From NCBI RefSeq assembly GCF_014230315.1, contig NZ_JACLAW010000011.1, forward strand, positions 1 through 64,000: DNA of 64,000 nucleotides, in the 5' to 3' direction. The notes under the pieces were generated by a model, which saw only the letters and a list, made by a program, of their open reading frames with translations, was not told the origin of the DNA and searched no databases. The translations under genes and the position numbers were made by a program. Shown in pieces: positions 5,747-25,704 of the stretch; position 1 is the first letter of the stretch, and every line of letters starts with the position of its first letter. This stretch comes from Novosphingobium flavum (GTDB lineage Bacteria > Pseudomonadota > Alphaproteobacteria > Sphingomonadales > Sphingomonadaceae).

Positions 5747-5824
5747 GATCCGTTTTCTCCCGTAGTCAGTCGAACCCGCGTGAGGATGGACAACGCGAAC
5801 TCCGCGCCGTTCCCACCGCGTTTG

Positions 5825-7444: not shown

Positions 7445-10400
7445 CAGAATGCGACCCTTGCGCCGACATAGAATGCCCGCCCGATGGCGTCGTCTGCAGG
7501 ATAGAACCCGATCCCGGGCTGACCGGCGCCCGTGGGCGGCGCAAACGGCGTCGTATTCGTGAACGGCGTATAAACCGGCGGCTTCTGGTCGAATATGTTC
7601 GACACGTTCAGGAAGAACTGGACATTGTGCGACTGGGGATCGCCGCTGCCGTCGAGCGACACGCGGTACGACAGATTGAGGTTGGAGAAGGATACCGCGG
7701 CCACGTCCTCACTGCCGGGAGCCACCTGAAGGCCCAGCAAGGGATCGACATTCTTCATCCCGCTGCGCCAGCGCGTCGACCAGTCGACCCGGAATGCATC
7801 GGTGACATTATAGCTGAGGCTGGCCTGCAGCCGGACCTTGGGGATGGAGACGCCCGCCGCGTCAGTCGTCGGCGTGCTTGTTTGCACGGCGCGCAGGCTC
7901 GGCTGGTAGCTGACAAGGGCACGGATCGACAATGGCTTGCCGAACAATTCGCTGCGGTAATTCGCTTCGAAGTCCCAACCATAGGTCGAGGCTTTCGCGA
8001 TGTTCAACGGCAATTGCGTATAAAACAATGTTGCCGAATTGGAGACCGCCTGGTTCGCAGGCGTGCGGCCGAACCCGCCCGGTCGCACTTGCAGCGCGCA
8101 GTAGGGCGACGAGCCGCCACTGTCGTAGCATGCGTTCTGAATGGTTGGCAGCGATCCGTCGACCTGCGTGATCGCGTTGTTGATGACGATATTATAGTAA
8201 TCGACCGCCAGACTGAACTGGGGCACTGGCTTGACCACGAAGCCGGCAGTCCAAGTATATCCGACTTCCGGTCTAAGATTAGGATTGCCGCCAAGTTGCT
8301 GGTTTGCTGTATATCCCGGAGTTACGCCCACCTGCGCTCCGGTAAGGTAGTCGGTAGCGGTTGCCAGACCCTGGATGCGGCCGGGAGTGTACAACTCGCT
8401 AAGGTTCGGTGCCCGAAAATCGCGCGACCGGCTGCCACGAAGCCTCAACCAGTCATTGACCTCCCAATCCAGGCCGATTTTCCAAGTCAAGGCATTGAAG
8501 TATGATTTCGAGTAGGGAATGCTCGTCACCGCGCTCCCATTCGATACGTATTTTGCGTAGCGCGCCGCGACATTGACGTCCAACCTGCGCGCAAAAAATA
8601 TGTCTTTCAGCAATGGCACATTAGCTTCGGCGGCGCCTTCCAGCACGCTTTGGGAAACCGGCGCGCGGGCCGCTGTCCCATTCGGGAAAATTGTCGTCGT
8701 CCCGACGTTGGTGGCCGACTGTTGCACACAGGATGTGCGGGAGGGGAGTACGCCCAGCCCATTGCAGTCGAGCGGCAGCACATTGGCCGGCGGCGCATCG
8801 CTGATCAGTTCGTAACCGAGCCGGCGATACTCCCCGGTCAGGGCGAGGACGACGGGGCCGGCCCAATTATCGAAAAGTGGACCGCTGATGCTGGCCGTAG
8901 CGTCGTGCGAATTGGTAATTCCGACATACTCGGTAGGCTGCAGGACATAATCGAGCGAAGCTTTTGTCGTCGCCGTCGGGCCAAAGATGTTCATGGGCAC
9001 GCAGCCCTTGAAATTGGCCGCATATTGGGGCTGGGTCAGAACCCAACAGGTTGGCACACCGTTCACATTCACCGAGTCGAGGGCGGCGAACAGCTTCGCG
9101 GTGTTCCAGGAATTGTTCGAAACATTCGACTGGCGGACGTCACTGTAAATGTAACCTACTTGCCACTTGAACTTTCCAAGAGATCCATCGAAACCCGGAT
9201 TAACATATATGTTCCGGTTCGTGTAACTGACATTTGTGACCGGCGTTACCGAATTAAGGAAGTATTTTCCGAGATTAAAGACAGTTACCCCGGCGGACTT
9301 CATCGCCGCTGCCATGCTGGGCGGCAGAAAAGCGTTATCGACCGTCATCCTGAAGCCGGTCGCGAGCGCCGATGAGGCGCTGGACCCGTTCGATCGCATG
9401 CTGTTGATATAGGCGCGCTGGTGACCGAGATCGTAGAAACCAGCCAGGTGAAAATTCACGTCGTCCGTCAATTCATAGTCGAAACGCGCGAAGCTCTGGA
9501 TGAAATCCTGCTGCGCAACCATGGTGGCGATTTCCGGATTGAACCCGCCCTGCCCGCCGACCTGATTATTACCGACACCAACCGGAGTACCGGGCACGAA
9601 CGGTGTCGCCAGCCCGTCTTGAGCAAAATTGTAGCCTGCGAACGGATTCGCGACAGTGCCGATCTGGTTAATAATGCCGCCGAAGGTGCCCGCACCATCC
9701 CGAACATTATTGGCGACGAAGAACGGTATGCAGGCCGTTACCCCAGCGGCACATCCATTGCCCTGGAGCGTCCATCCAGCATTCCCGGTAACCTGGACAT
9801 TGGGCCGGTCATTGCGAAATACCGCCCCCTCGCGATGGTACTGAACGCTCGCCTCGAAGTGACCGCGGCCGCCAAACAACTGGGTGCCGAAGGCAAGGCC
9901 AGTATCAAAAGTCGGGTCATCCCCGCGCTGGGAGATGCCGGTCTGAATGTTGGCCTTGACGCCGACAAACTTGGTGTCAGTAACAAAGTTCACGACACCG
10001 GTGATGCCGTCCGAACCGTAGACCGCCGACGCGCCGCCCGCTGCAATGTCCACCCGCTTCAGCAGCAATTGCGGGATCTGGTTGAGATCCACGGTACCGT
10101 CCAGATTTTGCGCCGGCACGCGAAGCCCGTCCAGCAGCACCAGGTTGCGGGTTGGCCCGAACCCGCGCAGATTGAGGGTTGCCGCGGCCGCGTTGGTGCC
10201 GCCCTGGCCGGCGCCCTTCGCTACTTTGCCCCCATTGGCACCCGCGACCAAGGGATTTTCGAGCAGCCCCTCGAACACCGTAGTTGGCTTTGACGCCGAC
10301 AGCGCCTCGGTCGACATGATCGTGATTGGCGTCGGACTGTTGTCGCCGTTGGAAATGACGCGGGATCCCGTGACGATAATCTCCTCATCCCTGCGCGCAC

Positions 10401-10521
10401 TGGAAGCGGAGGATTGCAGCTCGGGAGCGGGCTGCGGATCGGCGGCCGACTGCGCATGCGCAGTCTGGAAAGCAAACGCAGAGCCGCTGACAAGCAGGGC
10501 GACGACGAACTGGTGCCTCAT
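7444..10521 (-). CDS. TonB-dependent outer-membrane receptor of the esterase operon
   Basis: The 1025-residue protein starts with a signal peptide (M-R-H-Q-F-V-V-A-L-L..., cleavage near A-H-A-Q). A TonB-box-like segment E-E-I-I-V-T-G-S-R follows and leads into a plug domain with L-N-L-R-G-F-G, L-V-L-L-D-G-L-R and A-S-A-V-Y-G-S-D-x-I-x-G-V-V-N-F. A long 22-strand beta-barrel ends in a C-terminal aromatic residue (A-R-V-A-F). The start at 10521 is set by a clear GGGAGG 6 bases upstream; the frame is open further upstream but has no good site there. It is the first gene of the operon with the three esterases and LysR. Its ligand is unknown, most likely an ester or aromatic compound too large for porins. 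A putative GntR operator lies 58 bases upstream of the start. Confidence 0.92.
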   Translation of the reverse strand: MRHQFVVALLVSGSAFAFQTAHAQSAADPQPAPELQSSASSARRDEEIIVTGSRVISNGDNSPTPITIMSTEALSASKPTTVFEGLLENPLVAGANGGKVAKGAGQGGTNAAAATLNLRGFGPTRNLVLLDGLRVPAQNLDGTVDLNQIPQLLLKRVDIAAGGASAVYGSDGITGVVNFVTDTKFVGVKANIQTGISQRGDDPTFDTGLAFGTQLFGGRGHFEASVQYHREGAVFRNDRPNVQVTGNAGWTLQGNGCAAGVTACIPFFVANNVRDGAGTFGGIINQIGTVANPFAGYNFAQDGLATPFVPGTPVGVGNNQVGGQGGFNPEIATMVAQQDFIQSFARFDYELTDDVNFHLAGFYDLGHQRAYINSMRSNGSSASSALATGFRMTVDNAFLPPSMAAAMKSAGVTVFNLGKYFLNSVTPVTNVSYTNRNIYVNPGFDGSLGKFKWQVGYIYSDVRQSNVSNNSWNTAKLFAALDSVNVNGVPTCWVLTQPQYAANFKGCVPMNIFGPTATTKASLDYVLQPTEYVGITNSHDATASISGPLFDNWAGPVVLALTGEYRRLGYELISDAPPANVLPLDCNGLGVLPSRTSCVQQSATNVGTTTIFPNGTAARAPVSQSVLEGAAEANVPLLKDIFFARRLDVNVAARYAKYVSNGSAVTSIPYSKSYFNALTWKIGLDWEVNDWLRLRGSRSRDFRAPNLSELYTPGRIQGLATATDYLTGAQVGVTPGYTANQQLGGNPNLRPEVGYTWTAGFVVKPVPQFSLAVDYYNIVINNAITQVDGSLPTIQNACYDSGGSSPYCALQVRPGGFGRTPANQAVSNSATLFYTQLPLNIAKASTYGWDFEANYRSELFGKPLSIRALVSYQPSLRAVQTSTPTTDAAGVSIPKVRLQASLSYNVTDAFRVDWSTRWRSGMKNVDPLLGLQVAPGSEDVAAVSFSNLNLSYRVSLDGSGDPQSHNVQFFLNVSNIFDQKPPVYTPFTNTTPFAPPTGAGQPGIGFYPADDAIGRAFYVGARVAF

Positions 10522-10878
10522 GTAAATCCTCCCTCGGTTCGGACAACGGCTCACTTGGATGCGATTTACGTCCCCGATATTGGTGACCATTTTTAATGCA
10601 CAAAATTTGACTTCAATCAAGACCACCCAAGAAGAATTGGCCTTAGCGACTGAAATAAATCTATTGTGAAATTGCAGAACTTTTTTTGGCGCACGAACGC
10701 TTTCTCTAAATAGCAGATTCTTTAATCCGCTATTTAGCGCTACATATAATATACTCATAAAACCATATTCATTCGCGCATTTAATTATTTCGTGATTACG
10801 CGCACAATAATTTAATCAACTCAATCCCAACAAATCATATAAACTAAGCAAAATATGCAAAATTACGAAAGGCCTTGG
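10522..10878. promoter_or_regulatory. AT-rich intergenic region upstream of the TonB receptor operon
   Basis: These 357 bases hold no gene I can support. Most of the stretch from about 10590 to 10870 is visibly AT-rich compared with its GC-rich neighbours. The half next to the receptor gene should contain its promoter and includes the ATTGGTGACCATT palindrome described separately. The other half trails the aldehyde dehydrogenase gene, which ends at 10879. Confidence 0.6.
10579..10591. promoter_or_regulatory. Putative GntR operator A (ATTGGTGACCATT)
   Basis: A 13-bp near-palindrome, ATTGGT-G-ACCATT, with one mismatched pair between arms, lies 58 bases upstream of the TonB receptor start. It shares CGATATTGGT with the copy at 22282-22294 beside the GntR gene. 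The TTGGT-N-ACCAA form is a typical FCD-type GntR operator. Binding is inferred. Confidence 0.55.
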
Positions 10879-12357
10879 CTACGCAAACGGATTTGCCACT
10901 TCGTCCGCAGTGGAAATCCAGACGCTCTTGGTCTGCAGATATTCCCAGATTGCCTCTTGCCCATTCTCCCGCCCCAACCCGCTGCGTTTGTAGCCGCCGG
11001 TCGGCGTCAGGTAGGACGCGGTCTTGTAGGTGTTGATCCAGACGGTCCCGGCCTGAAGGCCTTCGATCATCCGGAACATGCGGCGGACATCCCTGGTCCA
11101 GACACCGGATGCCAAGCCATAAAGGGAGTCGTTGGCCAACTGTAATGCCTCGTCTTCATCCTTGAACGGGATGACCGACAAGACCGGCCCGAAGACCTCC
11201 TCCTGCGCGATGCGCATGCTGTTGCTCACGCCGGTGAATATCGTCGGCTTGATGAAAAGCCCGTTGCCGAAATCGCTCGAGTAGGGCGGCGCGCCTCCGA
11301 TCGCGGCTGTCGCGCCTTCCTTCTGGGCGATATCGATGTAGTCGAGCACCTTGGAATAGTGCGGGCGGTTCGCCAGCGGCCCGATTTTGGTATCCGGGCT
11401 CATCGGATTGCCGACCTTGGCCTTCGAGGCCAATTCGACCAATGCGTCGACGAATTTGTCGTGCACGGATTCCTGCACAAGCAAACGCGACCCCGCGACA
11501 CAGGCCTGCCCGGCCGCTGCAAAAATGCCGGATGCCACGCCATTCAGGGCGTTGCCGAACTCGGCATCATCGAAAACGATATTCGGCGATTTGCCTCCCA
11601 GTTCCATACTCACCGGCTTCAGATGGCGCGCGGCCGCCTCGTAGATCTTCTGCCCCGTGCTGTCCGACCCGGTTATCGAGATCTTGGCCACCAACGGATG
11701 GGCCACGAGCGCCGCGCCGACCTCATCGCCGAAACCGGTTACGACATTGATGACGCCACCAGGAAAGCCGGCGCTATCAACGAGCTTCATCAGTTCCAAC
11801 GCCGATGCGGATGTGAACTCGGACGGCTTGACCACGACCGTGTTGCCGGCGGCTAGGGCTGGCGCCAACTTCCAGGATGTCAGGAAGAGCGGCGAATTCC
11901 AGGGGATTATGGCGGCGATGACACCAAGCGGCTCATGCCGCGTATAATTGAAGTGCTGCTTCTTGTCGGTTGGAATAACCGCGCCTTCTATCTTGTCGGC
12001 CAGACCGCCAAAATAATAATACCACTGCGGAATATAGCCGATCTGGGCCCGCACCTCGGCAAATGTCTTTCCATTGTCGCGCACCTCTATGGCGGCCAGA
12101 TGATCCGCGTGTTCTGCGATCAAATCGCCCAGTTTGCGCAGCAGCCGCCCTCTTTCCGTCGGCAGTAACCTCGCCCAGCTCGGGAACGCCCGGTGCGCAG
12201 CGCGAACCGCCCGGTCTACGTCCTCGGCATCGCACCGCGGAATCAAGGCCCAAGGACTTCCCGTGTAAGGATCGTCGCTTTCAAAGTGCCGCGATGTTGC
12301 GGAACCCGTCCACTGGCCGCCGATATGCGCCTGGTATGCCTTCATGCCCATTGCCAT
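10879..12357 (-). CDS. NAD(P)-dependent aldehyde dehydrogenase
   Basis: The 492-residue protein is a full-length ALDH-superfamily enzyme. It shows P-W-N-S-P-L in the cofactor region, M-E-L-G-G-K-S-P-N with the general-base Glu, G-Q-A-C-V-A-G-S-R with the catalytic Cys near residue 300, and the E-E-V-F-G-P-V and N-D-S-x-Y-G-L-A-S-G-V motifs near the C-terminus. The ATG at 12357 has GGAG seven bases upstream and starts one base after the stop of the ABC binding-protein gene, so the two are co-transcribed and probably coupled. In this operon it may oxidise the aldehyde released by the DapA-family lyase to the acid; the exact substrate is unknown. Confidence 0.9.
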   Translation of the reverse strand: MAMGMKAYQAHIGGQWTGSATSRHFESDDPYTGSPWALIPRCDAEDVDRAVRAAHRAFPSWARLLPTERGRLLRKLGDLIAEHADHLAAIEVRDNGKTFAEVRAQIGYIPQWYYYFGGLADKIEGAVIPTDKKQHFNYTRHEPLGVIAAIIPWNSPLFLTSWKLAPALAAGNTVVVKPSEFTSASALELMKLVDSAGFPGGVINVVTGFGDEVGAALVAHPLVAKISITGSDSTGQKIYEAAARHLKPVSMELGGKSPNIVFDDAEFGNALNGVASGIFAAAGQACVAGSRLLVQESVHDKFVDALVELASKAKVGNPMSPDTKIGPLANRPHYSKVLDYIDIAQKEGATAAIGGAPPYSSDFGNGLFIKPTIFTGVSNSMRIAQEEVFGPVLSVIPFKDEDEALQLANDSLYGLASGVWTRDVRRMFRMIEGLQAGTVWINTYKTASYLTPTGGYKRSGLGRENGQEAIWEYLQTKSVWISTADEVANPFA

Positions 12358-12358
12358 G

Positions 12359-13381
12359 TCACCGCTCCGAGGCTGCTAAGGTAGTATCGGCGAAGTCTGC
12401 CAGCGACAGGCTGTTCGCCCGCGGCACCACGGTCCCGATTTGCGCGATCATGGATTGTATCGCCGGCGCATTGACCGCAGTGGTCTCCGACCAGGTGTAG
12501 GGGTTCTTGCTGGAGGTTCCGACCTTGATCGCGTTTGTGCACGCAGCCAGGCTGGCACCGCCGTGAACGCACATCGGCAACGCCTTGTCAGGATTAGCCT
12601 TTATCCAGACGGAAGCCCTGCCAATAGCGCGAAGGAAAGCACTCAGCGCCGGCCGATTGGCGTCCACGAAATCCTGCCGGGCAAAAACGCTAGTCGCGAC
12701 GAATTTGATCGGGCTCTTGTCTGAACTGACGATGACCTGCGGCCTGAGCGCGTCGGTCAGCAGGGTATCCTCGATCTCGATCGCATCGACCCGGCCAGTC
12801 GATAGCGCAGCCAACCGGGCAGGCGGCGAACCCAGCGGTAGCCAAGTAACATCCCGATCCCGAATGCCAAACCGTGGCAGAGTTGCGATCGAATAGATCT
12901 GATCGCCGGAATTGTAGCTTACCACGCCGAAGATCTTGCCCTTCAGCTGCTCGACGCTGTTAATGCCCTTCCCCCCAATGATATTGTAGGAGTTATCGAC
13001 GAACTCTCCAATGATCTTTCCCTTGGAAACACCCCGGGCAATGTCAGCCATGAACTGGCTTGCCGCCCCCAAGGAGACGTCAAGCTGGCCCGACCTCATC
13101 GCTGCCGCCAGCGGCGCAGCGCCGCCTGACATGGCAAAATACTCGACATTCAGGCCGGCTTCCTTGAAATAGCCAAGCTTGTCGGCGACGAAGAACGGCG
13201 TCGCGTTGACGAGAGTGTCCGTCGAGGCAACGCGGATCTTGGTGATCTTCGCGGACTTGTCCTGCGGCGCCTCGGAGCGCCAGGCACTCGCGGCGATGAT
13301 CAAGATGCCGGCCACGGCCGCGACTGTTCGCACTTTCCAGTTAGGCGATCCCTGCGCTTCCACTTTGCGATCCAATTTCAT
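12359..13381 (-). CDS. NitT/TauT-type ABC transporter substrate-binding protein
   Basis: The 340-residue protein has an N-terminal membrane/signal segment (V-A-A-V-A-G-I-L-I-I-A-A-S-A). An NMT1/SsuA-like periplasmic-binding fold follows: T-P-F-F-V-A-D-K-L-G-Y-F-K-E-A-G-L-x-V, then G-Q-L-D-V-S-L-G-A-A and L-K-G-K-I-F-G-V. Start 13381 (M-K-L-D-R-K) was preferred to the frame start at 13411 because AGGGAG lies upstream. The cognate permease and ATPase are probably those at 17679-18515 and 16785-17615, about 3.4 kb away with catabolic genes between. It likely binds a small aromatic or aliphatic acid. Confidence 0.85.
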   Translation of the reverse strand: MKLDRKVEAQGSPNWKVRTVAAVAGILIIAASAWRSEAPQDKSAKITKIRVASTDTLVNATPFFVADKLGYFKEAGLNVEYFAMSGGAAPLAAAMRSGQLDVSLGAASQFMADIARGVSKGKIIGEFVDNSYNIIGGKGINSVEQLKGKIFGVVSYNSGDQIYSIATLPRFGIRDRDVTWLPLGSPPARLAALSTGRVDAIEIEDTLLTDALRPQVIVSSDKSPIKFVATSVFARQDFVDANRPALSAFLRAIGRASVWIKANPDKALPMCVHGGASLAACTNAIKVGTSSKNPYTWSETTAVNAPAIQSMIAQIGTVVPRANSLSLADFADTTLAASER

Positions 13382-13426
13382 CGGATTTCTCAGCTCCCTA
13401 CCGCGCACCACGAAACCTGCACAAAT

Positions 13427-14353
13427 TCACGCCGTATTCGCGGCCTGGCTTTCAAAGAGCCCTTCTTCCTCGAAGACCTTGCGGATGCGGGCAACATGTT
13501 CGTCGGTTGCCGGCAGTCCGGGGCGGCGCATCTCGCCGACATCGCGGCCCAGCAACCTGATCGCGGCCTTGTGCCCGGCCTGCGCGCCGCCACCTGGACC
13601 GGAGCTTAGCACCGCGGCGATCCTGGCGAGCTTCAGGTGCCATTTACGGACCGTCGGCCAATCCTTCGCGAGGTAGGCAGTCCATAGGTTCAAGCTCCAG
13701 TCATGGGCGAAATTGGAAAGCGCGCTGCAGCTAGCCTTGATGTCGACGCCCTTCATCAAGGGATAGAGCTGAAGCAATCCGCCGGCGACCGGGTTGAACG
13801 ACGGATTCGTTTCCGCGGACAGCACGATCTTGGCCGTGTCGGCGAATTCATTGTCCGGCGCCATCTTGATTCCGACGATATTGGGCAGCGCAGCAATGCG
13901 CGCGATCGTGGCCGGCGAAAAATGATTGCCTGTCATGTGAGAAGGATAGATGACAATTGGGGTATCAGAAAATGTTGATGCAATATCACGATAATACTCG
14001 AAGGCGCTTTCTTGTGAGTATTTGTTGAAATATGGCGCCATGACGAAAATCCCGTCAGCGCCCAACTTCATGGCATGGGTTGCCTGCTCAAGCGTCTTCT
14101 CGAAGCTCTCGCTTCCAAGAAAGGGCCAGGCCTTGACCCCGGCTCCTTGCGCGACGTCGATGACGGTCTCTGCCCACGCTTTCCAATCGCTGAGAGTCAG
14201 GCTGACATATTCGGCATGGGTCGACGGTCCGTGAAGACCACCGACCCCGCGAGTGACCAAGCGCAGCTCCTCGGCGAGCTGCTTTTGGTTGAGCCGCCCG
14301 TTTCTGTCGAACGGGGTATATGCGCCAGGATTCAGGCCTTCAGGTAGCAACAT
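13427..14353 (-). CDS. DapA/N-acetylneuraminate-lyase family aldolase or hydratase-aldolase
   Basis: The 308-residue protein has the class I DHDPS/NAL TIM-barrel pattern. The Schiff-base Lys is in N-I-V-G-I-K-M-A-P and the conserved Tyr in I-V-I-Y-P-S-H-M-T-G. The G-A-Y-T-P-F and L-V-x-x-G-V-G-G-L-H-G segments correspond to the pyruvate-binding N-terminal part. Start 14353 has AGGA nine bases upstream. Because it sits in an operon with ring-cleavage dioxygenase, tautomerase and aldehyde dehydrogenase genes rather than lysine genes, a catabolic role is likelier, for example splitting a pyruvate-containing ring-cleavage product as NahE-type enzymes do. That role is inference. Confidence 0.8.
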   Translation of the reverse strand: MLLPEGLNPGAYTPFDRNGRLNQKQLAEELRLVTRGVGGLHGPSTHAEYVSLTLSDWKAWAETVIDVAQGAGVKAWPFLGSESFEKTLEQATHAMKLGADGIFVMAPYFNKYSQESAFEYYRDIASTFSDTPIVIYPSHMTGNHFSPATIARIAALPNIVGIKMAPDNEFADTAKIVLSAETNPSFNPVAGGLLQLYPLMKGVDIKASCSALSNFAHDWSLNLWTAYLAKDWPTVRKWHLKLARIAAVLSSGPGGGAQAGHKAAIRLLGRDVGEMRRPGLPATDEHVARIRKVFEEEGLFESQAANTA

Positions 14354-14452
14354 CTTTAATTCCTTGCCTTCGTTGGCGGCGCTGACGCCTGTCGGTGGAA
14401 ACCTTCGGCTACCGACCACTGCGCACGACCATATGTCCGCCCAGAGTGAGCC

Positions 14453-14896
14453 TTAGGCCGGCCCGATGGGCACCGTCCGGCGCGTGTGGAACAGCCACTT
14501 GCCATTCTCGCGCCGCACCTCGTCCCGCTTGGCCGAAGCCAAGACGATCTCGAACTTGCCGTCCTTCTTTTCGACCGCCATCATGTAGCTTTGGGACTCC
14601 GCGCCTTCCGCGGTTGCCCGGATGACGACGTTGCTGACCCAATGCGACCACCCCCGCACTTCGGGTCGCTTTTCCCACCGATTCTCGGAATACTCTATCA
14701 GCGCGACCCTGCCTTGAACCGGCTCCTTGCCGATAGGAAAGAACGTGCCATCGGTGGTGAAAAGATCCGCCCAGGACTCATGATCACCAGCGTCCTCACA
14801 CAGGAAGAACTTGGCCGCGATCAACTCGTATATTTCGAGTCTATCATCGGAGCTCAACGTGATTATGTCGGCATTTAGATTATTATTTACGGTCAT
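14453..14896 (-). CDS. SnoaL/NTF2-like small protein
   Basis: The 147-residue protein (from ATG 14896) has the cone-shaped SnoaL/NTF2-like signature: I-Y-E-L-I-A-A-K-F-F-L-C-E-D-A-G-D-H-E-S-W-A-D-L-F near the start, then D-G-T-F, and W-S-H-W-V-S-N-V-V-I in the sheet. This fold is shared by ring-hydroxylating-dioxygenase beta subunits and by polyketide cyclases, dehydratases and isomerases. No dioxygenase alpha subunit is in the window, so a stand-alone dehydratase/isomerase-type role in the pathway is likelier. A TTG at 14929 could extend it by 11 residues but has no ribosome-binding site. Confidence 0.75.
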   Translation of the reverse strand: MTVNNNLNADIITLSSDDRLEIYELIAAKFFLCEDAGDHESWADLFTTDGTFFPIGKEPVQGRVALIEYSENRWEKRPEVRGWSHWVSNVVIRATAEGAESQSYMMAVEKKDGKFEIVLASAKRDEVRRENGKWLFHTRRTVPIGPA

Positions 14897-15077
14897 GTTA
14901 TCACCGTTGCAATATATTGGCGTTACCAAGGGACGTCGCCACCGACTGTCCTTCGAAAGTTTTTGGACAAATCGCCCGCAAAACCTTGCTGCTGCTCGAC
15001 GACGGCATCAGGCGCGTCCAACAGCCCCACCCTAGATGGGGTAACTGCACCAGCAGCCTTCGGGCCGCGACCGTCCG

Positions 15078-15917
15078 TTACCGTTCGGCCGCTTCCATCA
15101 CCATCATGCCTCCACCCGTATGCGAGATCGGCTTGTGATAAACACTGGTCACGACATCGACCTTGTCGGGCAGAGCTCCGCGCGCGACGACCCAGGTCAG
15201 GAATTCCAAGCCCTGCTCGCCGCCATTGGCGACGATATCATCGCTAGTGAAGCGGGCGATTTCGATCGGATTATTGGCCAGCGTTTCCATGCAATAGGCA
15301 TCGAATTCTTCATTGATGTATCCGCCGATCCCGATCGTATGAGAAAGACCGCCTGTGGCCAGGAACATCACCTTGAGATCCTTGGGATAGGACCCAATGG
15401 CCTTTCCCAAAGCTTGACCAAGCTTGAAAATGCGGCGCGGCGTCGGAAGAGGCGGCTGCACCGCATTGATCTCGACGGGGATCAGCGGGATCACCTTGTG
15501 GTCGGGCCACAGAAGGTCGAGCGCGGTGGTGCCGCCGTGGTCGAACGCCATTTCCTGACAAGTCGCGATGTCGAACTCATCCTCAATGAGCGATTGCGCG
15601 ATATGCCAGGCCAGGTGCGGGTCACTTTGGAAGGTCCGCGGCGGCGGCGCGCCATTGCCCTCGTCCGCATTGGTGAACGTCGGCGCGGTGCCGATCGCGA
15701 AGGCGGGACGGTTCTCGAGGGAGAAATTGACCCCGTGATCGTTGTACACAAGGACCACGACATCAGGGTCAACTTCAGCCACCCATTCACGAACCCGCGG
15801 AAACGCGTCGAAGAATGGCTTCAAGCCAAGCTCCGGATCATTCTCCCGCTTTTTGGCGATCGTCTTGCCAATAATCGGCGTATGAGAAGTCGCCACGCTG
15901 CCGACAATCCGAGCCAT
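15078..15917 (-). CDS. ligB: LigB-like class III extradiol dioxygenase, catalytic (beta) subunit
   Basis: The 279-residue protein closely follows protocatechuate 4,5-dioxygenase beta subunit LigB. His12 (T-S-H-T-P) and His61 (Y-N-D-H-G) fall exactly at the LigB Fe(II)-ligand positions, the catalytic His is in G-G-L-S-H-T (His193), and Glu residues lie in the G-G-E-Q-G-L-E segment where the third ligand is expected. P-D-L/H-L-A-W-H-I-A-Q-S-L and R-G-A-L-P-x-K-V are also LigB-like. Start 15917 has AAGGA upstream; the frame extends nine codons further. LigA-like is encoded 42 bases upstream. It should open a catecholic ring next to the hydroxyls; protocatechuate, gallate or a substituted analogue are candidates. 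Confidence 0.88.
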   Translation of the reverse strand: MARIVGSVATSHTPIIGKTIAKKRENDPELGLKPFFDAFPRVREWVAEVDPDVVVLVYNDHGVNFSLENRPAFAIGTAPTFTNADEGNGAPPPRTFQSDPHLAWHIAQSLIEDEFDIATCQEMAFDHGGTTALDLLWPDHKVIPLIPVEINAVQPPLPTPRRIFKLGQALGKAIGSYPKDLKVMFLATGGLSHTIGIGGYINEEFDAYCMETLANNPIEIARFTSDDIVANGGEQGLEFLTWVVARGALPDKVDVVTSVYHKPISHTGGGMMVMEAAER

Positions 15918-15959
15918 AGTTCTTTCCTTCTTCGTTCGTAACAATCGCCGCAGCGGTCT

Positions 15960-16238
15960 TCAGGCGCTTGCCGGCCCGCCACCACCAGTCACGAATCTGA
16001 TTTTCCCGTAGAAATACATGTTCAAACCTACGGCCATCATCTCGTCCCGGTCGCGGCTTTTCACCGCCGCGACCGCTTTCTCGCTGAGTCCGAATTTTGC
16101 CATGTAAGCATCTTCGTCGGCCTGGAATTCTTGCCGATTTTCTTCCCGGATAAGGGAGTGGCCCATTTTATTGAGCGCGTACCCCTCGACTATAAGGTCG
16201 ACGTCAAGCGGCTTGGTTCCTACAAATTTGATACCCAA
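15960..16238 (-). CDS. ligA: LigA-like alpha (small) subunit of extradiol dioxygenase, TTG start
   Basis: The 92-residue protein matches the LigA family: Y-A-L-N-K-M-G-H-S-L, then R-Q-E-F-Q-A-D-x-x-x-Y-M-x-K-F-G-L-S, and a C-terminal V-G-L-N-M-Y-F-Y-G-K-I. LigA covers the active-site mouth of LigB. The only in-frame ATG upstream (16304) would add 22 residues with no family resemblance, whereas TTG 16238 has GAAGGAAA about 5-9 bases upstream, so TTG is the likely start. It is shorter than classical LigA (about 139 residues) but comparable to small alpha subunits in related dioxygenases. Confidence 0.8.
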   Translation of the reverse strand: MGIKFVGTKPLDVDLIVEGYALNKMGHSLIREENRQEFQADEDAYMAKFGLSEKAVAAVKSRDRDEMMAVGLNMYFYGKIRFVTGGGGPASA

Positions 16239-16342
16239 GTGGCTTTCCTTCTGTTTGCCAGACCGGGCGGACACGCACAGATCCGGACCGCAAGGCGACG
16301 GCACCCCGACAGCAACGCATTCAACTGTGCAGCAGCGCCCGG

Positions 16343-16564
16343 TCAGCTGGACTGCGAAACCTGGTGATGCTTGCGCCGCTCGGCATCACAGAACAGCTCG
16401 CCGCCCTTCGCCTTGTTTTCCTCCGGGCATTCCACGATCTGAATGACGATGTTCTTCGGAGGCGACTTGAAGTGGACGTCGAAAGCGGTCGTGATGTCCT
16501 TGACCAGCCCACGCTTCTGCTCGACGGTTCTACCAGCCGCTGCGTAAATAATTACTTCAGGCAT
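16343..16564 (-). CDS. 4-oxalocrotonate tautomerase-family enzyme
   Basis: The 73-residue protein starts Met-Pro, leaving Pro1 as the catalytic base after Met removal. It continues with the 4-OT pattern G-R-T-V-E-Q-K-R-G-L-V-K-D-I-T, then I-V-I-Q-I-V-E and G-G-E-L. GGAGA lies seven bases upstream of the ATG. Tautomerases of this family isomerise the enol product of meta ring cleavage. It is first in the group tautomerase - LigA - LigB - SnoaL - DapA-like, and the perfect palindrome at 16693-16707 lies in its upstream region. Confidence 0.85.
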   Translation of the reverse strand: MPEVIIYAAAGRTVEQKRGLVKDITTAFDVHFKSPPKNIVIQIVECPEENKAKGGELFCDAERRKHHQVSQSS

Positions 16565-16693
16565 TTTTCTCTCCACTACGTTATGAAAATTGGCGATGCC
16601 TTCAAGAACATTATTGTAATTTCCAAACCGGATATGTTCTTGTCGGTATTATCTTTATTCTTCTTACCAATCCAACCCGATTCGGTCAACATA

Positions 16694-16706
16694 ATTGGTG
16701 ACCAAT
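16694..16706. promoter_or_regulatory. Putative GntR operator B (ATTGGTGACCAAT), perfect palindrome
   Basis: The 13-bp core is part of a perfect 15-bp palindrome, AATTGGT-G-ACCAATT (16693-16707), in the 220-base AT-rich gap between the ATPase gene end and the tautomerase start. On the minus strand a TTGACC element follows four bases downstream of it and could be a -35. It is the best-conserved of three copies of this motif in the module. Confidence 0.6.
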
Positions 16707-16784
16707 TTCACCATCAATATCTTGCAGGGCAAGATCTGGCGCGCGGCAGCCACGCTGGCCCGCCTCATCCTTTCGAAACAGCGG

Positions 16785-17615
16785 CTATGCGGCGGCGAGC
16801 GCCCCCTCCTGACGCACGACCTGCCATATCGAATCCTCGAGGGCCCGATGTTCCGGACTCTGCTTGATGCTCAGGTGCCGCGGACGCGGGAACGGAATAG
16901 ACCATTCTCCGGCAATCCGGGCCGGGCGAGCGCTGAAAGCAATCACCCGGTCCGCCAAAAACACAGCCTCGTCGATTTGATGGGTCACGAAGATGGCGGT
17001 CTTCTTGCGCTCATCCCAGATCTTCAGCAATTCGCCCTGCATGATCTCGCGGGTCTGTGCATCCAGGCCGGAAAACGGTTCGTCGAGCAACAGTACTTGA
17101 GGATCAGCCGCCAGGGCCCTCGCGATGTTGACTCGCTGCTGCATGCCGCCAGACAGTTGCTTGGGATGAAAGGTTTCGAACTGGGTCAAACCCGCCAGAC
17201 CAATGAGTTCCCGCGCAATCTCGTAGCGCTCACCTTTCGGCATCCCGGCCATTTCCAGGCCGAAGCTGACGTTATCGAGTACGTTTCGCCACGGCAGCAG
17301 GCAGGAATCCTGGAACACGACCGCGCGGTCCCGTCCAGGCCCGGTCACGACCTTGCCATCAACCGCGATCTCGCCGCCACTTGATGGCGTCAGGCCATCC
17401 AGCGCCATAAGGAATGTGCTCTTGCCCGATCCGCTGGGCCCGACGATCGCGATGAACTCGCCATCGCGCACCTCCAGGTCGATACCGTTGACAGCCACGA
17501 AGTTCTTGCCGCGCGAACTGAAGGTGACGCGCAGATCGCGGATCTGAAGCTTCGTTGGCGCGTCAACGCACGAGCCCGGCGGTGAGACCTCTTGTTCCTG
17601 GAAAATCACGGTCAT
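16785..17615 (-). CDS. NitT/TauT-type ABC transporter ATP-binding protein
   Basis: The 276-residue ATPase has Walker A G-P-S-G-S-G-K-S-T, Q-loop F-Q-D-S-C-L-L-P-W, signature L-S-G-G-M-Q-Q-R, Walker B L-L-L-D-E-P-F-S-G-L-D and switch His in V-T-H-Q-I-D-E-A. F-Q-D-x-x-L-L-P-W and E-A-V-F-L-A-D-R are typical of the SsuB/TauB/NrtD group. The start has AGGGAT upstream and lies 63 bases after the permease stop. It should energise uptake through the permease at 17679-18515. Confidence 0.92.
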   Translation of the reverse strand: MTVIFQEQEVSPPGSCVDAPTKLQIRDLRVTFSSRGKNFVAVNGIDLEVRDGEFIAIVGPSGSGKSTFLMALDGLTPSSGGEIAVDGKVVTGPGRDRAVVFQDSCLLPWRNVLDNVSFGLEMAGMPKGERYEIARELIGLAGLTQFETFHPKQLSGGMQQRVNIARALAADPQVLLLDEPFSGLDAQTREIMQGELLKIWDERKKTAIFVTHQIDEAVFLADRVIAFSARPARIAGEWSIPFPRPRHLSIKQSPEHRALEDSIWQVVRQEGALAAA

Positions 17616-17678
17616 GCCTGCATCCCTTTGTCGAACTGTCGCGGGGTCTTCGCCCCACCCCTGCGATGGCCGATATTT

Positions 17679-18515
17679 CTAGGCCTTCCACTGCTGCATG
17701 GCAGCCTCGAGCGCCGCAGCCAGCTGCGTCAACGCGATGCCGATCACAGTCAGAAGGACAACCGCCGCGTACATGCGCGACATGTCCATCGCACTTTGCG
17801 CCTTGATGAGGATGTTACCGATGCCAGCGGTGGAGCCGAACAGTTCGGACATCGCAACCGCCACCACGGCCTTGCCCACGCAGATGCGCAAACCCGTCAT
17901 GAAAAATGGGACGACCGACGGCAGCACCACGGCGCAAACGATTTGCCGATCCGACGCTCCGAAACTCTTGGCCATGCGGAGCAATTGTGTGTCAACGCTC
18001 CTCACGCCGGCCGCGGTGTTCATCAACATTACGACGATGCAGCTCAGCAGGACCAGCAGGACCTTCGGAAGCACGCCAATCCCGAAAAGCAGGACCAAGA
18101 GAGGGATCAGCGCCAAGTGCGGGATTGAATTGAGCGCGGTCACCACCGGCCTCAGAAATTCATCTACCGCCCCATACCAGCCCGACAGGATGCCAAGCGT
18201 GCCGCCGACCAGGACGGACAGGCCGAGGCCCCAGAAGAACTCGTTGGCAGAAACTGACAAGTCCGAGGCAAATCCCGGATCAGTGACAATGCCCTTCAGC
18301 GCCCCCAAAACCTCAAGCGGACCCGGCAGAAAAATCGGGTCGACCCAGCGATAGCTAGCCGACGCTTGCCAAGTACCCACGATCAGCACGACCGAAAGGC
18401 AGGCCAGGAGCAACGAACGCCTGGAGCGCAATTCATGGACAATGCCGCGCAAAAACCTGCGCATGGCCATACTGTCATCAGCCGCAGGCAAACCTATTGT
18501 CGGGTTAGACGCCAT
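17679..18515 (-). CDS. NitT/TauT-type ABC transporter permease
   Basis: The 278-residue inner-membrane protein has about six hydrophobic segments and the SsuC/TauC-type permease motif around R-M-A-K-S-F-G-A-S-D-R-Q-I (EAA loop), plus the family phrase N-S-I-P-H-L-A-L-I-P-L. It forms the channel of the importer with the downstream ATPase and probably with the binding protein at 12359-13381. A 206-base gap separates it from the dioxygenase homologue upstream, so it may have its own promoter. Confidence 0.9.
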   Translation of the reverse strand: MASNPTIGLPAADDSMAMRRFLRGIVHELRSRRSLLLACLSVVLIVGTWQASASYRWVDPIFLPGPLEVLGALKGIVTDPGFASDLSVSANEFFWGLGLSVLVGGTLGILSGWYGAVDEFLRPVVTALNSIPHLALIPLLVLLFGIGVLPKVLLVLLSCIVVMLMNTAAGVRSVDTQLLRMAKSFGASDRQIVCAVVLPSVVPFFMTGLRICVGKAVVAVAMSELFGSTAGIGNILIKAQSAMDMSRMYAAVVLLTVIGIALTQLAAALEAAMQQWKA

Positions 18516-18721
18516 ATCGTCCCTTACCTGTCAGGATATTTCACAGTATTCCCATCGCCGCCGATTGGCCCGACTTGAGAACGACTGGTTTTTAATTAGG
18601 CAGGAGGAAAATGAATGTCATTCCGGTTTCAACGTCCCGGTCATCGGATTCCTGTCGCGCCCTGCATGGACCACTAACAAGGCCGACGTTCGATGCCGGG
18701 GAATTCGTTGCGCAAGACCGT

Positions 18722-19705
18722 TCAGGACCAGGCCGCGAAGGCGAGGCCCGCACCTGTTCCTCCCAGGCTACGATATGCTGGAAAGTAGTCGATCCACTTG
18801 TTGGCGAGCCCGGAAACGGCACCGGCCATGACGATCCAGTCGAGAATTTGCGCCGATCCACCCGAAAGCGCTTTGCGCGGCAAGGTCGTCAGCACCTCGG
18901 CGTCCCCCGTCTGAAGCGCCGCAATCACACTGCGGTCAAGTTCCTCGTTCAAAAGCGTGTGGCTGAGGCCGCCCGCTGCGGCGATACCGACGCGCAAATC
19001 ACGAGGGTCATTCTCGATCGCGGCGCGGATCGCCTGCCCGATCGCAAAGCACCGGGCGGGCGTCGGGACATTGGGCCCATACCAGGTATTGATGATGACC
19101 GGCACGATCGGCACGTCGACGCCGACCATCAGTCGGTTCGCCACGAAGGCCCAGGAATGGCCGATCCCCTTGCCATCGGCAGCCGGCCGATTGACGACCG
19201 AAACATCGATCTCCCGTTCGATCAGCCGCCCGATCAGATCGTTGGCGAAGTCCGGCGCCCCCGGATAGTGCCGAGCGGGATCAAGCGCGGCCGCCTCGCG
19301 CCATCGTTTCTGCCACTCAGGAAAGCCCGTAACGGCCTTGCCGTTGGCAAGTTCGGCGCCGTTGTAGATGGCCACGGCTGGCATGTTGCTGCGATCGAGA
19401 AGCTCGCCCTGATCATCCCCGACAACAACCAGTACATCCAGCCGGGCACGTGAAATCGCCTGGGCAAGCCGGCGCTGAGCAGCGCTGATCAGGCCGGTCA
19501 GTTCGTCCAGATACGGTTCGGCGAGATAGTCCTTGAAACGATCGCCGGCCTCGGCGGCAAGCTGGTCATAACTCACCTGGCTGCCGTCCGGACGAAAGAA
19601 CCATCCTCGTTCAGCATCGAGTTTGCCGCGGATGTGCCAATCGCGACCGGGCACGCTGGCAAGCGAATTTTGCGATGTACCGATCCCCAGAATGATCGAG
19701 GCCAC
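18722..19705 (-). CDS. Class III extradiol dioxygenase homologue with altered metal-ligand positions
   Basis: The 327-residue protein belongs to the LigB superfamily: G-I-G-T-S near the N-terminus, P-A-V-A-I-Y, H-Y-P-G-A-P-D, I-N-T-W-Y-G-P-N, and G-G-L-S-H-T with the catalytic His (His249). The usual iron ligands seem replaced: the first His position reads Gln12 (G-T-S-Q-N-S; codon CAA), the second reads Gln99 (G-D-D-Q-G-E), and the expected Glu near the C-terminus reads Gln286 (S-G-G-S-A-Q). Gln at the second position occurs in some relatives as I recall, so only the combination is clearly unusual. It may bind another metal, act as a non-redox lyase/hydrolase, or be inactive. The gene lies between the aldo/keto reductase and the permease. 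Confidence 0.75.
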   Translation of the reverse strand: MASIILGIGTSQNSLASVPGRDWHIRGKLDAERGWFFRPDGSQVSYDQLAAEAGDRFKDYLAEPYLDELTGLISAAQRRLAQAISRARLDVLVVVGDDQGELLDRSNMPAVAIYNGAELANGKAVTGFPEWQKRWREAAALDPARHYPGAPDFANDLIGRLIEREIDVSVVNRPAADGKGIGHSWAFVANRLMVGVDVPIVPVIINTWYGPNVPTPARCFAIGQAIRAAIENDPRDLRVGIAAAGGLSHTLLNEELDRSVIAALQTGDAEVLTTLPRKALSGGSAQILDWIVMAGAVSGLANKWIDYFPAYRSLGGTGAGLAFAAWS

Positions 19706-19874
19706 TGAATCTTCTCCCCAATAATGATTTCATCGGGCTGGCTAAGCTCACCCCGGCCATTCGACCGGGCGGCCCTTCGCCAATTCGCGACGGGTGTGCC
19801 GCAAGGAATGGCCCGTCCATCGCCAAGCAGCGCCGGACAGCCATCCGGCGCCTGGCCGCAAGCCCATAAGCAGA

Positions 19875-20849
19875 CTAAAGTCCGTTGATCTCCAGCAGGT
19901 CGCCCGAGGGCGCATTCGCGTCCAGTATGAGGCGGACCGCGTCCATCTCGTCAGCGGTAATTTCCCAGCCACAGGCCGTAGCATTCGACTTCACCTGGCC
20001 AAGCGTGCTGACGCCTGCGATGATCGACGGCACTGCACGGTGAGCGAGCAGCCAGCCGAAAGCCAGTTCGATGATCGAATGGCCCCGCTCCTGCGCGTAG
20101 GATGTGAGCGCTGCGACCGCGGCAAGGTTGGATGCCGACATGAATTCATTCTGCGTACTCAGGCTCTTGCCCGACATGCGACTGTCTTGGGGCACTGGCG
20201 CTCCCGTGCGGTATTTGCCGGTCAACAGGCCATGAAAAAGAGGCTGATAAGGGAGTAGGCTGGTCCCGCAGGCCTCACATTCGGCCAGCAGGTCGGCCAC
20301 CGGCTTGCGATGCAGCAGACTGAAAGAGGCTTGGGTGGATGCGAATGTCGGCGTTCCCGCAGCTCGCGCTGCGACATTTACGGACCGCAATTGAGCCGCT
20401 GTGAAATTCGAACCACCGATCTCGCGGATTTTCCCTTCCCTGACCAGATCGGCGAGCGCGCCGAGCGTGTCTTCGATCGGCGTGAGCGGATCGGGAATGT
20501 GAAGTTGCATCAGGTCGATGCGGTCGGTCTGCAGCCTCTTGAGGCTCGCTTCCGTCGCGCTGCGGACATAGTCGGGCTTGGCCCCAAATCGCCGATCGTC
20601 CAGCTTGCGGCCAAATTTGGTGGCAATGATCACGCTATCGCGAAAAGGCTTCAGAGCCTCGCCAACGAACACCTCGCTGGTAGTCCTCGGCATGCCGTAG
20701 GTATCTGCGGTGTCGAAGAAGTTGATTCCGGCCTCCACCGCGCCGCCGACGATTGTCGCGGTGGCGTCGCGGTCGATCCCGCGCCCGAAATTCGCACAAC
20801 CAAGTCCAACCACGCTGACTTGCAAAGAGCCGATCGATCGCATGCGCAA
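19875..20849 (-). CDS. Aldo/keto reductase
   Basis: The 324-residue protein has the AKR tetrad in order: Asp46 and Tyr51 (F-F-D-T-A-D-T-Y-G), Lys78 (A-T-K-F-G) and His117 (M-Q-L-H-I-P-D). The NADPH-binding end is I-I-A-G-V-S-T-L-G-Q-V. Start choice is between TTG 20849 and ATG 20843; AAGGA is nine bases before the TTG and fifteen before the ATG, favouring TTG. It begins 30 bases after the LysR gene at 20880-22130, so the two probably share a transcript. It may reduce an aldehyde or ketone intermediate of the pathway. Confidence 0.88.
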   Translation of the reverse strand: MRMRSIGSLQVSVVGLGCANFGRGIDRDATATIVGGAVEAGINFFDTADTYGMPRTTSEVFVGEALKPFRDSVIIATKFGRKLDDRRFGAKPDYVRSATEASLKRLQTDRIDLMQLHIPDPLTPIEDTLGALADLVREGKIREIGGSNFTAAQLRSVNVAARAAGTPTFASTQASFSLLHRKPVADLLAECEACGTSLLPYQPLFHGLLTGKYRTGAPVPQDSRMSGKSLSTQNEFMSASNLAAVAALTSYAQERGHSIIELAFGWLLAHRAVPSIIAGVSTLGQVKSNATACGWEITADEMDAVRLILDANAPSGDLLEINGL

Positions 20850-20879
20850 CGCGCAAATTCCTTCCGCTAATTCCGCTAA

Positions 20880-22130
20880 TTAGGCGGCAACACGCCAGCC
20901 GTTGAAACCCGAACCGCCGCCCTGTCGCCCCCGCAGGAAATTCATAAACTCCCGCTGGACCGCCGACGGCCGCCATTCCCTGCGAACGCTCATCCCCATC
21001 TGCAACGGAGCCCTCTCCACGGCGTAGTTGAGTTCGACCAGGTGATTGCCCAGGCTTCGGCTCAACTCGAGTTCCGACCGCAATAGGATCGCAAGGTGCT
21101 TGGCCCGGGTCAGCAATACAAAGATCGACACCAGCGACTGGGTCTCGATGTTGAATCTTGGCGACGATATGCCCTTGAAAATCCGTTCAAAAATCGGCCG
21201 CCGGGACTTGGGCGCGATCCACTCAACCGAGGCGAGATCTTCGCGTGAAACCCGCTCAAAGCGGACCAGGGCATGGTTGCGGCTGGCAGCGATCACATAA
21301 GGATCCTCCCCCAGCACTTCCTCGATGACATCCGGTGTCGGCGCCGGATTCCCGACCATGCCGATCAGCAAGTCGATTTGGCCATCACGCAGTTTTGAAA
21401 GCAATGCGTCATAGGAACCGCTCGTGACACTGATCTTCACTTCCGGATGCAACTTGCTGAAGTCATCCAGCTCCAGCGAATTCAGAAAATTGCCCGCCGA
21501 TACCTGCCCGATCAGCAACCGTCCGCCGAGGGTCCGCTGCTGGACTTTCATTTCCTCTTCGGCGCATTCCAGTTCGCGCGTCGCCAGAATGATCTGGCCT
21601 GCCAGCTTCGATCCGCAGGCATTGGTCTTCAAACCCTGCGCGCTGTTCTCGAACAGGCACACGCCCAGATGCCGCTCCAGCCTGCGCGCGGATCGCCGCA
21701 ATGAGGTGACGGTCACATCACAATGGCGTGCGGCGTGAGGAAACGCGCCATATTCGTGCAATGTCCGCAAGGCCAGCATGTCCGACCAGGTGATCCGCTG
21801 CATGACCGTCGACGGCGTCGCTCCCGCCAACGAACTTGCCCGGAGCGCTTCCGCCACGGCCGTCTCCATGATGGCGAAAAAGCCATCTACCCGGGCCATC
21901 AGGACCTTGCCCGCGTCAGTCGGGTAGCAGCCCGAGGCGGTCCGATTAAACAAGCTGAAGCCAGACTCGCTCTCCATGTTCTGGATGGCTTCCGAGACGG
22001 CGGACTGGGAACGCCCAAGTTCGGACGCCGCCTTGCAAATGTTTTCGCATCGCGCCGCTGCGCGAAAGGCGCGAAGCCTGCCGATACTTGGCAAAACGCT
22101 GACTGCCTTGCCCAACTCAGCCCTGATCAT
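20880..22130 (-). CDS. LysR-family regulator with two tandem HTH domains (second copy)
   Basis: The 416-residue protein has the same layout as the regulator at 1031-2332. HTH 1 is near residues 15-75 (A-A-S-E-L-G-R-S-Q-S-A-V-S-E-A-I). A degenerate HTH 2 is near 105-165 (A-A-R-H-C-D-V-T-V-T-S-L-R-R-S, L-F-E-N-S-A-Q-G-L). A substrate-binding domain follows from about residue 185. Start 22130 has GGAGA seven bases upstream; the frame also opens at a GTG (22175) without such a site. The gene is transcribed away from the GntR gene, and a GntR-type palindrome lies between them. Confidence 0.85.
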   Translation of the reverse strand: MIRAELGKAVSVLPSIGRLRAFRAAARCENICKAASELGRSQSAVSEAIQNMESESGFSLFNRTASGCYPTDAGKVLMARVDGFFAIMETAVAEALRASSLAGATPSTVMQRITWSDMLALRTLHEYGAFPHAARHCDVTVTSLRRSARRLERHLGVCLFENSAQGLKTNACGSKLAGQIILATRELECAEEEMKVQQRTLGGRLLIGQVSAGNFLNSLELDDFSKLHPEVKISVTSGSYDALLSKLRDGQIDLLIGMVGNPAPTPDVIEEVLGEDPYVIAASRNHALVRFERVSREDLASVEWIAPKSRRPIFERIFKGISSPRFNIETQSLVSIFVLLTRAKHLAILLRSELELSRSLGNHLVELNYAVERAPLQMGMSVRREWRPSAVQREFMNFLRGRQGGGSGFNGWRVAA

Positions 22131-22281
22131 CGCTTCTCTCCGCGAACGGGCGACTTTTTTGCCGCTGCGGGCCACGACAACCGGTGGCTGGAATGCCCGT
22201 TGCAGGCGGTGCGCCCTGATGCCTTGGCCTACCGAAGGCTCCAGCGCGAGTCAATATCACTCTCCATTTTACAACAACGAT

Positions 22282-22294
22282 ATTGGTCACCAGT
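22282..22294. promoter_or_regulatory. Putative GntR operator C (ATTGGTCACCAGT)
   Basis: A near-palindrome ATTGGT-C-ACCAGT (one mismatch between arms) in the 336-base region between the divergent LysR (start 22130) and GntR (start 22467) genes. It shares CGATATTGGT with operator A. It could serve autoregulation of the GntR gene and control of the LysR/aldo-keto reductase transcript. The rest of this intergenic stretch shows no gene. Confidence 0.55.
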
Positions 22295-22466
22295 TTACAT
22301 CAACGGCACGCCTCGCCTAAGGTCACACTTCACCCTCCGGTTGCGATTCCGCGCCCCCTTTGTTACGAGAAATTGGCTGCCCCATCGAAGATGCACTTTT
22401 AGCTGACGATCCGACTGGCGCTTCCTGTCGGCCCTGCAATATCCTAGATCCAACGAAGCTCGCGAT

Positions 22467-23180
22467 ATGAACAAGATTGCAAACGCCTCGCCGACAGCAA
22501 AAAAACGTCCAAAAGTGTTGTCACAGGCCGCGGCCGTCGACGCCATTCGTCAGGCGATCGTGACCGGACAATTAATCCCCGGGCAGCGCCTGGTAGAGGA
22601 TGATGTTTCCCAATTACTGGGCGCAATCAGTCGCAATACCGTTCGGGCCGCGCTCACTGTGCTGGTTCACGAAGGCCTGGTCCTCCGAATCGACAACAAG
22701 GGCGCCCGCGTTCGCACGGTTGCACCCGAGGAAGGCGTTCAGATCACCGAGATGCGCTCGCTGGTGGAAGGCCACTGCGCTGCCCGCGCCGCCGAACGCA
22801 TTACCGACGATGAGATCGTCGAATTGCAACAGCTTGCCAAACAAATGAAGCGGCATGTCAAGCAAGGGAATACGGTGGGATTCATCGAGACCAAGGAATT
22901 GGTTGTCGACACCTATGTGCGCATCGCCAGCCATCCGATCGCCAAGGAGATTCTGGGCCGACTACGGGACCGCAATGCCGCGTTTCGGTCCAATCTTGCC
23001 TATAGGCCGGGCCGCCCACAGGTTTCGCTGCCGTATTGGCTCAAGACAATTGAGGCCATCTGCAATCGCGATCCAAACGCCGCGCAGATGGCAGTGCACA
23101 TCCATATGGAAAATGTCATTCAGATCATGAAATCCATGGATGGCGACAAACACCAGTTCGGCATCCGCGCGCCCGCTTGA
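22467..23180 (+). CDS. GntR-family transcriptional regulator, FCD subfamily
   Basis: The 237-residue protein has an N-terminal winged HTH (A-I-R-Q-A-I-V-T-G-Q-L-I-P-G-Q-R-L-V-E-D-D-V-S, then S-R-N-T-V-R-A-A-L) and an all-helical FCD effector domain beginning near I-T-E-M-R-S-L-V-E-G and ending with repeated His (A-V-H-I-H-M-E-N-V). FCD regulators usually repress catabolic operons and release DNA on binding an acid intermediate. Divergent orientation to the LysR gene, plus three TTGGT-N-ACCAA-type palindromes across the module, make it the best candidate for binding those sites. Confidence 0.88.
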   Translation: MNKIANASPTAKKRPKVLSQAAAVDAIRQAIVTGQLIPGQRLVEDDVSQLLGAISRNTVRAALTVLVHEGLVLRIDNKGARVRTVAPEEGVQITEMRSLVEGHCAARAAERITDDEIVELQQLAKQMKRHVKQGNTVGFIETKELVVDTYVRIASHPIAKEILGRLRDRNAAFRSNLAYRPGRPQVSLPYWLKTIEAICNRDPNAAQMAVHIHMENVIQIMKSMDGDKHQFGIRAPA

Positions 23181-23427
23181 TCGGGTGCGGATCAAAACAC
23201 ATTTCAAGGCGATTTATACGCAACCTTTGCACCGCGGCCCGAGGCCGTCGCCACGGTCCGAAAGTGCCGGTCCGTTGCGACCGGAACAGGGACGTCATTC
23301 GATATAAATCCAATCAGCCAACCAACCTTTTCGCAGTCAACAATCTTCGATGACCGACCAGGAACTATGCCTATCCCTTTCAAATAAAACACATTGCAAA
23401 TAATCCAGTACCCGGGAGAGTAATACA

Positions 23428-25221: not shown

Positions 25222-25297
25222 AATAAGCGATTTTCTCCATAGACACACACTTTCGCAGCAGTCGTCCGCTGCCGACATTCTCGTTCGACGGTCCAGC

Positions 25298-25616: not shown

Positions 25617-25664
25617 TGGCCGGCGGAGCCGCCCGGGAGTGAGACGAAGGCGACTTCGGCAAAT

Positions 25665-25695: not shown

Positions 25696-25704
25696 TTGGA
25701 ACGT

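Follow-up and report, generated by a model that had tools for sequence, protein, structure and literature searches.

The question raised by this locus is which regulator acts through three copies of a short palindrome found in a gene cluster of Novosphingobium flavum. The window (the whole 64,000-nt stretch of DNA that was analyzed) contains three consecutive minus-strand gene blocks (4070-22175), whose gene families suggest that the cluster probably degrades an aromatic ester. A previous sequence-only reading had assigned the palindromes to the FCD-type GntR regulator encoded beside them. The features concerned are as follows.

10579..10593, + strand: site A, ATTGGTGACCATTTT, at the head of the TonB receptor-esterase block
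16694..16708, + strand: site B, ATTGGTGACCAATTT, a perfect 13-bp palindrome at the head of the tautomerase-LigA-LigB-aldolase block
22282..22296, + strand: site C, ATTGGTCACCAGTTT, flanked by the divergently oriented LysR and gntR genes
4070..10521, - strand: block under site A, two carboxylesterase genes (4070-5746, 5825-7444) and a TonB receptor gene (7444-10521)
10879..16564, - strand: block under site B, genes for a tautomerase, LigA, LigB, a SnoaL-like protein, a DHDPS-type aldolase, an NMT1-type binding protein and an aldehyde dehydrogenase
16785..22175, - strand: block under site C (predicted to be co-transcribed), genes for a two-HTH LysR, an aldo-keto reductase, a second LigB-type protein, an ABC permease and an ABC ATPase
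22467..23180, + strand: FCD-type GntR regulator, the proposed binder, with Asp45, Asn57 and an extra residue, Ile54, in the HTH turn (domain and alignment evidence)

Three palindromes at the heads of three gene blocks

The motif ATTGGTNACCAAT occurs without mismatch at 16694-16706 (site B) and with one mismatch each at 10579-10591 (site A) and 22282-22294 (site C), confirming the three copies that had been described; nothing further in the window matches it at two or fewer mismatches. The ten bases said to be common to A and C are indeed present, as CGATATTGGT, at 10575 and 22278 and nowhere else in the window. To the right of the palindrome, after one free base, TTT is common to all three sites, giving the extended pattern ATTGGTNACCANTTT, which A, B, and C all read.

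In the 4.1-Mb genome, ATTGGTNACCANTTT is found exactly at A, B, and C only, and allowing one mismatch adds a single match, the reverse reading of site B. Across 195 genomes of the genus, exact copies of this pattern, which was defined after the three sites had been seen, number three in this genome, and 6 of the 194 other genomes have one each. The 13-mer ATTGGTNACCAAT at one or fewer mismatches has five places in the genome, three of them being A, B, and C and two lying outside the window. A motif common at random positions, which the sequence-only reading had named as evidence against a regulon, is thus not what the genome and genus counts reveal: the full motif is rare. The shorter core TTGGTNACCA is not distinctive alone, since it gives 24 rows (23 distinct places) in the genome vs. 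15 for the reversed control, and with up to three mismatches allowed, the window shows no enrichment (13 found vs. 11.9 expected). When palindrome families were restricted to AT-rich arms (two or fewer G/C per arm, a filter chosen once the motif was known), none of 200 dinucleotide shuffles contained a family with at least three sites within 12 kb, while the real window has one, A-B-C; without this filter, 17 families appear in the real window, and each of the 200 shuffles contains at least one.

One site lies at the head of each block: site A is 57 bp from the receptor ATG at 10521, site B is 129 bp from the tautomerase ATG at 16564, and site C is 106 bp from the LysR GTG at 22175 and 172 bp from the gntR ATG at 22467. 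For site A, the earlier claim that all three sites are intergenic depends on the receptor start at 10521, because a longer mechanical ORF from 10758 would overlap this site. We prefer the start at 10521 because a signal-peptide-like stretch, MRHQFVVALLVS, begins there behind GGAGG. Testing intergenic position by open frames is weak here, with 19 of 20 other core sites inside a frame of at least 735 bp and A, B, and C themselves also covered by frames of 1734, 687, and 699 bp. The spacers holding A, B, and C have G+C contents of 37, 45, and 56%, and the 200-bp surroundings of the 20 other core places have 55-72%. Promoter scans recognized no sigma-70-like or other promoter-like sites at any of the three places, and the overlap of operator and promoter therefore stays putative; the one terminator-like match in these scans (16696-16713) corresponds to the palindrome of site B plus flanking bases.

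The GntR regulator, its relatives and candidate binders

The regulator encoded in the window has 237 amino acids, with a GntR winged HTH domain (PF00392, residues 22-82, 45.4 bits against a cut-off of 27) followed by an FCD domain (PF07729, residues 92-215, 77.8 bits against 24.3), which places it in the FCD/FadR subfamily. Its scores fall below the cut-offs of the phnR_burk (TIGR03338; 76.3 vs. 271.5 bits) and NanR (NF003011; 46.9 vs. 260 bits) families. Arg56 of the recognition helix, which we take by alignment to be equivalent to FadR Arg45, does not vary among the 37 aligned proteins, as expected of the Arg that contacts the operator G. By eye, FCD-domain histidines (LH and PxHL stretches) are kept in many actinobacterial members; the window protein, like its proteobacterial relatives, has other residues there (PYWL), which may reflect a changed metal or ligand site.

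A first search of the genome returned 23 candidate relatives, four of them at E<=1e-30, and the protein has three paralogues at 44-52% identity. The closest (C24:46225) sits among ATTGTTNACAANTTT sites: all four places in the genome with one or fewer mismatches to ATTGTTNACAANTTT are on its contig, C24 (32921, 39610, 48258, 82311), and the 19 rows at two or fewer mismatches comprise eight on C24 (seven distinct places), A, B, and C, and eight on other contigs. On C24, four TonB receptor ORFs (L044:2686, L160:6354, L160:13218, L161:6379) have a place of this type 48-131 bp upstream, an MFS gene has one 26 bp upstream, and another is flanked by lactonase-family and FAS1-dehydratase-type genes; a variant, ATTGTTAGACAAT, precedes the paralogue gene, and all three exact ATTGTNNACAAT places in the genome are on C24. 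Sites A, B, and C differ from ATTGTTNACAANTTT at two positions, and in an ungapped alignment with the two exact C24 sites the only differences are a G where those have T and a C where they have A. With ATTGTTNACAANTTT-like sites in front of the MFS gene and four TonB receptor genes around the paralogue (G000 C24:17547-82325), a second regulon is predicted there.

The other two paralogues (C2:148134 and C22:92758) have a different element upstream, ATTGTC-N11-GACAAT, whose half-sites stand one extra helical turn apart and which has only two perfect matches in the genome:

G000 C2:148009-148031 (L045 from 10010): ATTGTC-N11-GACAAT
G000 C22:93543-93565 (L046 from 10544): ATTGTC-N11-GACAAT

The promoter DNA around these two sites is similar by eye, and their resemblance may partly reflect common descent.

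A profile of the four paralogues yielded 174 stretches, of which the best 80 were kept, corresponding to 79 loci in named genomes, some alphaproteobacterial and many actinobacterial; with the three paralogues, the set comprises 82 loci. The 350 bp before the start of each tblastn match (not the true start codon) were scanned for TKGT-Ng-ACMA with matching K and M. Sites with a gap of 2 or 3 were found upstream of gntR in 39 of the 82 loci and were absent from 43, the loci not being independent because near-identical ones (Poseidonocella/Mangrovicoccus; several Streptomyces) are counted separately. By gap, 35 loci have g=2, four g=3, one g=1, one g=4, two g=6, and none g=0 or g=5, with two kinds in three loci; among the 40 loci with a gap of 1-3, it is 2 or 3 in 39. 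Inside genes, used as a control, there are three TKGT/ACMA matches at any gap from 0 to 6 (the pool includes the window gene). In Novosphingobium umbonatum (L054/G233), three of eight exact ATTGTNNACAAT places are on the 47-kb contig of its homologue, and one site (L054, 16721-16732) lies 49 bp before a two-HTH LysR gene at 16782, a setting like that of site C. The operators of the homologues and of the C24 paralogue (ATTGTTGACAAT and ATTGTTNACAANTTT) resemble the window sites in belonging to the same protein subfamily (35-52% identical), in lying upstream of gntR, and in their ungapped alignment with A, B, and C (ATTGKTNACMANTTT). In contrast to the window sites, they have TTGT half-sites with mostly 2-nt spacing, and their regulators lack the HTH insertion and mostly have Ala at residue 45.

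These parallels, on which the case is built because the searches made found no orthologue with the insertion, make the assignment of A, B, and C to the neighboring FCD GntR (22467-23180) well supported. Very probably, this protein binds ATTGGTNACCANTTT at three operators, each heading one block of the cluster and site C being shared with the gntR promoter, and it would most likely be a repressor released by a pathway compound. The exact full motif at three genome places and its near absence from the genus argue for this reading, as do the ATTGTTNACAANTTT sites around the C24 paralogue and the sites upstream of homologous gntR genes; the 43 loci with no gap-2 or gap-3 site, the different element at two paralogues, and the 23 candidate relatives, another of which could be the binder, argue against it. 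Another FCD GntR or other regulator encoded elsewhere in the genome is nevertheless a quite improbable binder, given that the closest relatives have other palindromes beside them and that the three exact sites all lie within 12 kb of the window gntR. The idea of one regulon over the cluster, with the adjacent FCD GntR as its likely binder, is thus retained from the sequence-only reading, on the strength of similar palindromes at equivalent places beside a paralogue and many homologues.

The motif might alternatively be the operator of the adjoining two-HTH LysR (20880-22175), acting as activator of the cluster while GntR controls something else. The LysR gene does adjoin site C, and the related palindrome in N. 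umbonatum also precedes a two-HTH LysR gene. Nevertheless, related palindromes precede gntR at the 39 homologue loci, and only three loci (L046, and L050 and L063, which are overlapping stretches of one contig) gave a match to this LysR at E<=1e-6. The locus of the C24 paralogue with its sites (L044) is without one, in a search that also missed the LysR of L054. LysR boxes follow the consensus T-N11-A, which A, B, and C do not seem to resemble. The LysR was accordingly judged an unlikely binder, chiefly from the gntR-linked palindromes and the scarcity of LysR relatives at these loci. That the sites are three chance palindromes is more improbable still. In favor of chance are the lack of enrichment at three or fewer mismatches, the post hoc nature of both the extended pattern and the shuffle filter, and the presence of some GC-rich family in all 200 shuffles; against it stand the low genome and genus counts, the empty AT-rich shuffles, the placement at three block heads, and the parallel motif around the C24 paralogue. 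Mainly on those counts and the shuffle test, a chance origin was considered very unlikely.

If the FCD GntR is the binder, it would occupy ATTGGTNACCANTTT at site A to control the receptor-esterase genes, at site B to control ring cleavage, and at site C to control the LysR-transport block, with autoregulation through the promoter region shared with gntR. As a putative repressor released by a pathway compound, it would allow uptake, ester hydrolysis, ring cleavage, and the LysR regulator to be switched on together. One such switch would tie together 15 genes in three candidate operons plus gntR, so that a simple reporter could be used to look for the inducer and for the compound that the cluster acts on.

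Spacing of the proposed operators and the insertion in the HTH turn

In the turn before helix 3, the window GntR is one residue longer than its relatives. A gap stands at the insertion in all 95 tblastn rows from the 82 homologue loci (absent in 82 of 82), and the insertion is also absent in three PDB relatives among the alignments listed, of nine matched; a structure model (mean pLDDT 86) has helices at 44-50 and 56-68 with the turn between them. No orthologue with the insertion was found among close relatives (98 genomes including its own), in the genus (195 genomes, with one homologue at 49% in G233), or in the class (385), order (396), and phylum (398) sets, which overlap and are partly samples. 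A single-protein search of genome contigs gave no homologue, and the 740 plasmid records were all below 60% identity, the best among the matches listed being 38.5%. Residue 45 is Asp in the window GntR, and among 36 relatives it is Ala in 28 and Asp in none; residue 57 is Asn, a position occupied in the 36 relatives by Gly, Ala, or Ser (34), Asn (one), or Gln (one). By alignment to E. coli FadR, residues 45 and 57 presumably correspond to HTH positions 28 and 39.

A single nucleotide separates GT from AC in sites A, B, and C. FCD regulators had been said to be known to bind TTGGT-N-ACCAA-like palindromes, and this claim was not upheld: as far as the available portions of the sources go, the GT and AC of TKGT/ACMA boxes in the FadR subfamily are typically 3 nt apart, or 2 nt in several groups (PMC4494728), and Atu1419 of Agrobacterium fabrum binds ATGTATACAT, with GT-N2-AC (PMC7797058), in keeping with the 39 of 40 homologue loci. 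Reading the window sites in an alternative 3-nt frame, TTGG-TNA-CCAA, breaks the T of the box, so either frame departs from the consensus. The sites share with the FadR-subfamily operators described there a TKGT/ACMA-box palindrome (TGGT/ACCA here) with A/T-rich flanks, and they differ in having 1 nt rather than 2 or 3, or, in the 3-nt frame, G in place of the box T (PMC4494728). Atu1419, a repressor of hydroxycinnamate degradation, is likewise an FCD GntR with a key Arg in helix 3, and its catabolic cluster has several short palindromes, with the promoter region of Atu1419 itself among their locations; in contrast, its operator ATGTATACAT has 2-nt spacing, its effector is a folate derivative, and the available text mentions no two-HTH LysR partner for it (PMC7797058).

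Correlations reported in PMC4494728 link Asp at HTH position 28 to G/C pairing at the K position, and Asn at position 39 to an A/T pair in the center. Asp45 fits the sites read with a 1-nt gap, in which the K position holds G where the relatives have T; Asn57 fits the 3-nt reading, in which the center is flanked by T and A. It is therefore tempting, if doubtful, to suggest that the Ile54 insertion together with Asp45 and Asn57 moved an FCD regulator from TTGT-N2-ACAA to a new operator architecture, TTGGT-N-ACCAA, with HTH turn length and operator spacing changing together and the regulon being kept apart from those of the three paralogues within one cell. This agrees with the reported residue-base correlations (PMC4494728), though Asp45 and Asn57 fit different frames of the motif. 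It is graded lower because TTGTTACAA of L119, a locus lacking the insertion, likewise has 1-nt spacing (one of 82 loci, which does not exceed the two such matches inside genes), and because L099, L109, and L123, with Asn at residue 57, keep TTGTTGACAA. Literature searches with the motif words and GntR found no GntR paper, and a search on the GntR family found none among the matches listed. With at least three kinds of palindrome beside their genes, the four related FCD regulators form a natural set for asking how the operators of paralogues are kept separate and whether the length of the HTH turn sets half-site spacing.

Further features of the locus

The region beyond gntR (23428-29635) encodes a protein of the tannase/feruloyl-esterase family and another TonB receptor, and the spacer between gntR and the tannase-family gene (23181-23427) contains no motif match at four or fewer mismatches; these genes may belong to the pathway and stand outside the A-B-C regulon. 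A search of plasmids with LigB returned 204 records, the best among the matches listed having 53% identity.

LysR-family proteins with two matched HTH_1 stretches and one substrate domain are encoded twice in the window (20880-22175 and 1076-2311, both on the - strand), near the C22 paralogue (L046:17734-18903, - strand), and in N. umbonatum (L054:16782-18146, + strand), while L050/L063 contains a further LysR relative at 25%. This architecture thus recurs near these GntR genes; among the matches listed in a literature search on LysR proteins with two HTH domains, no title was on the subject. In addition, 53 identical bases at 55953-56005 and 57609-57661, surrounding two weak motif matches (55973 and 57629), suggest a repeat whose copies are 1656 bp apart.
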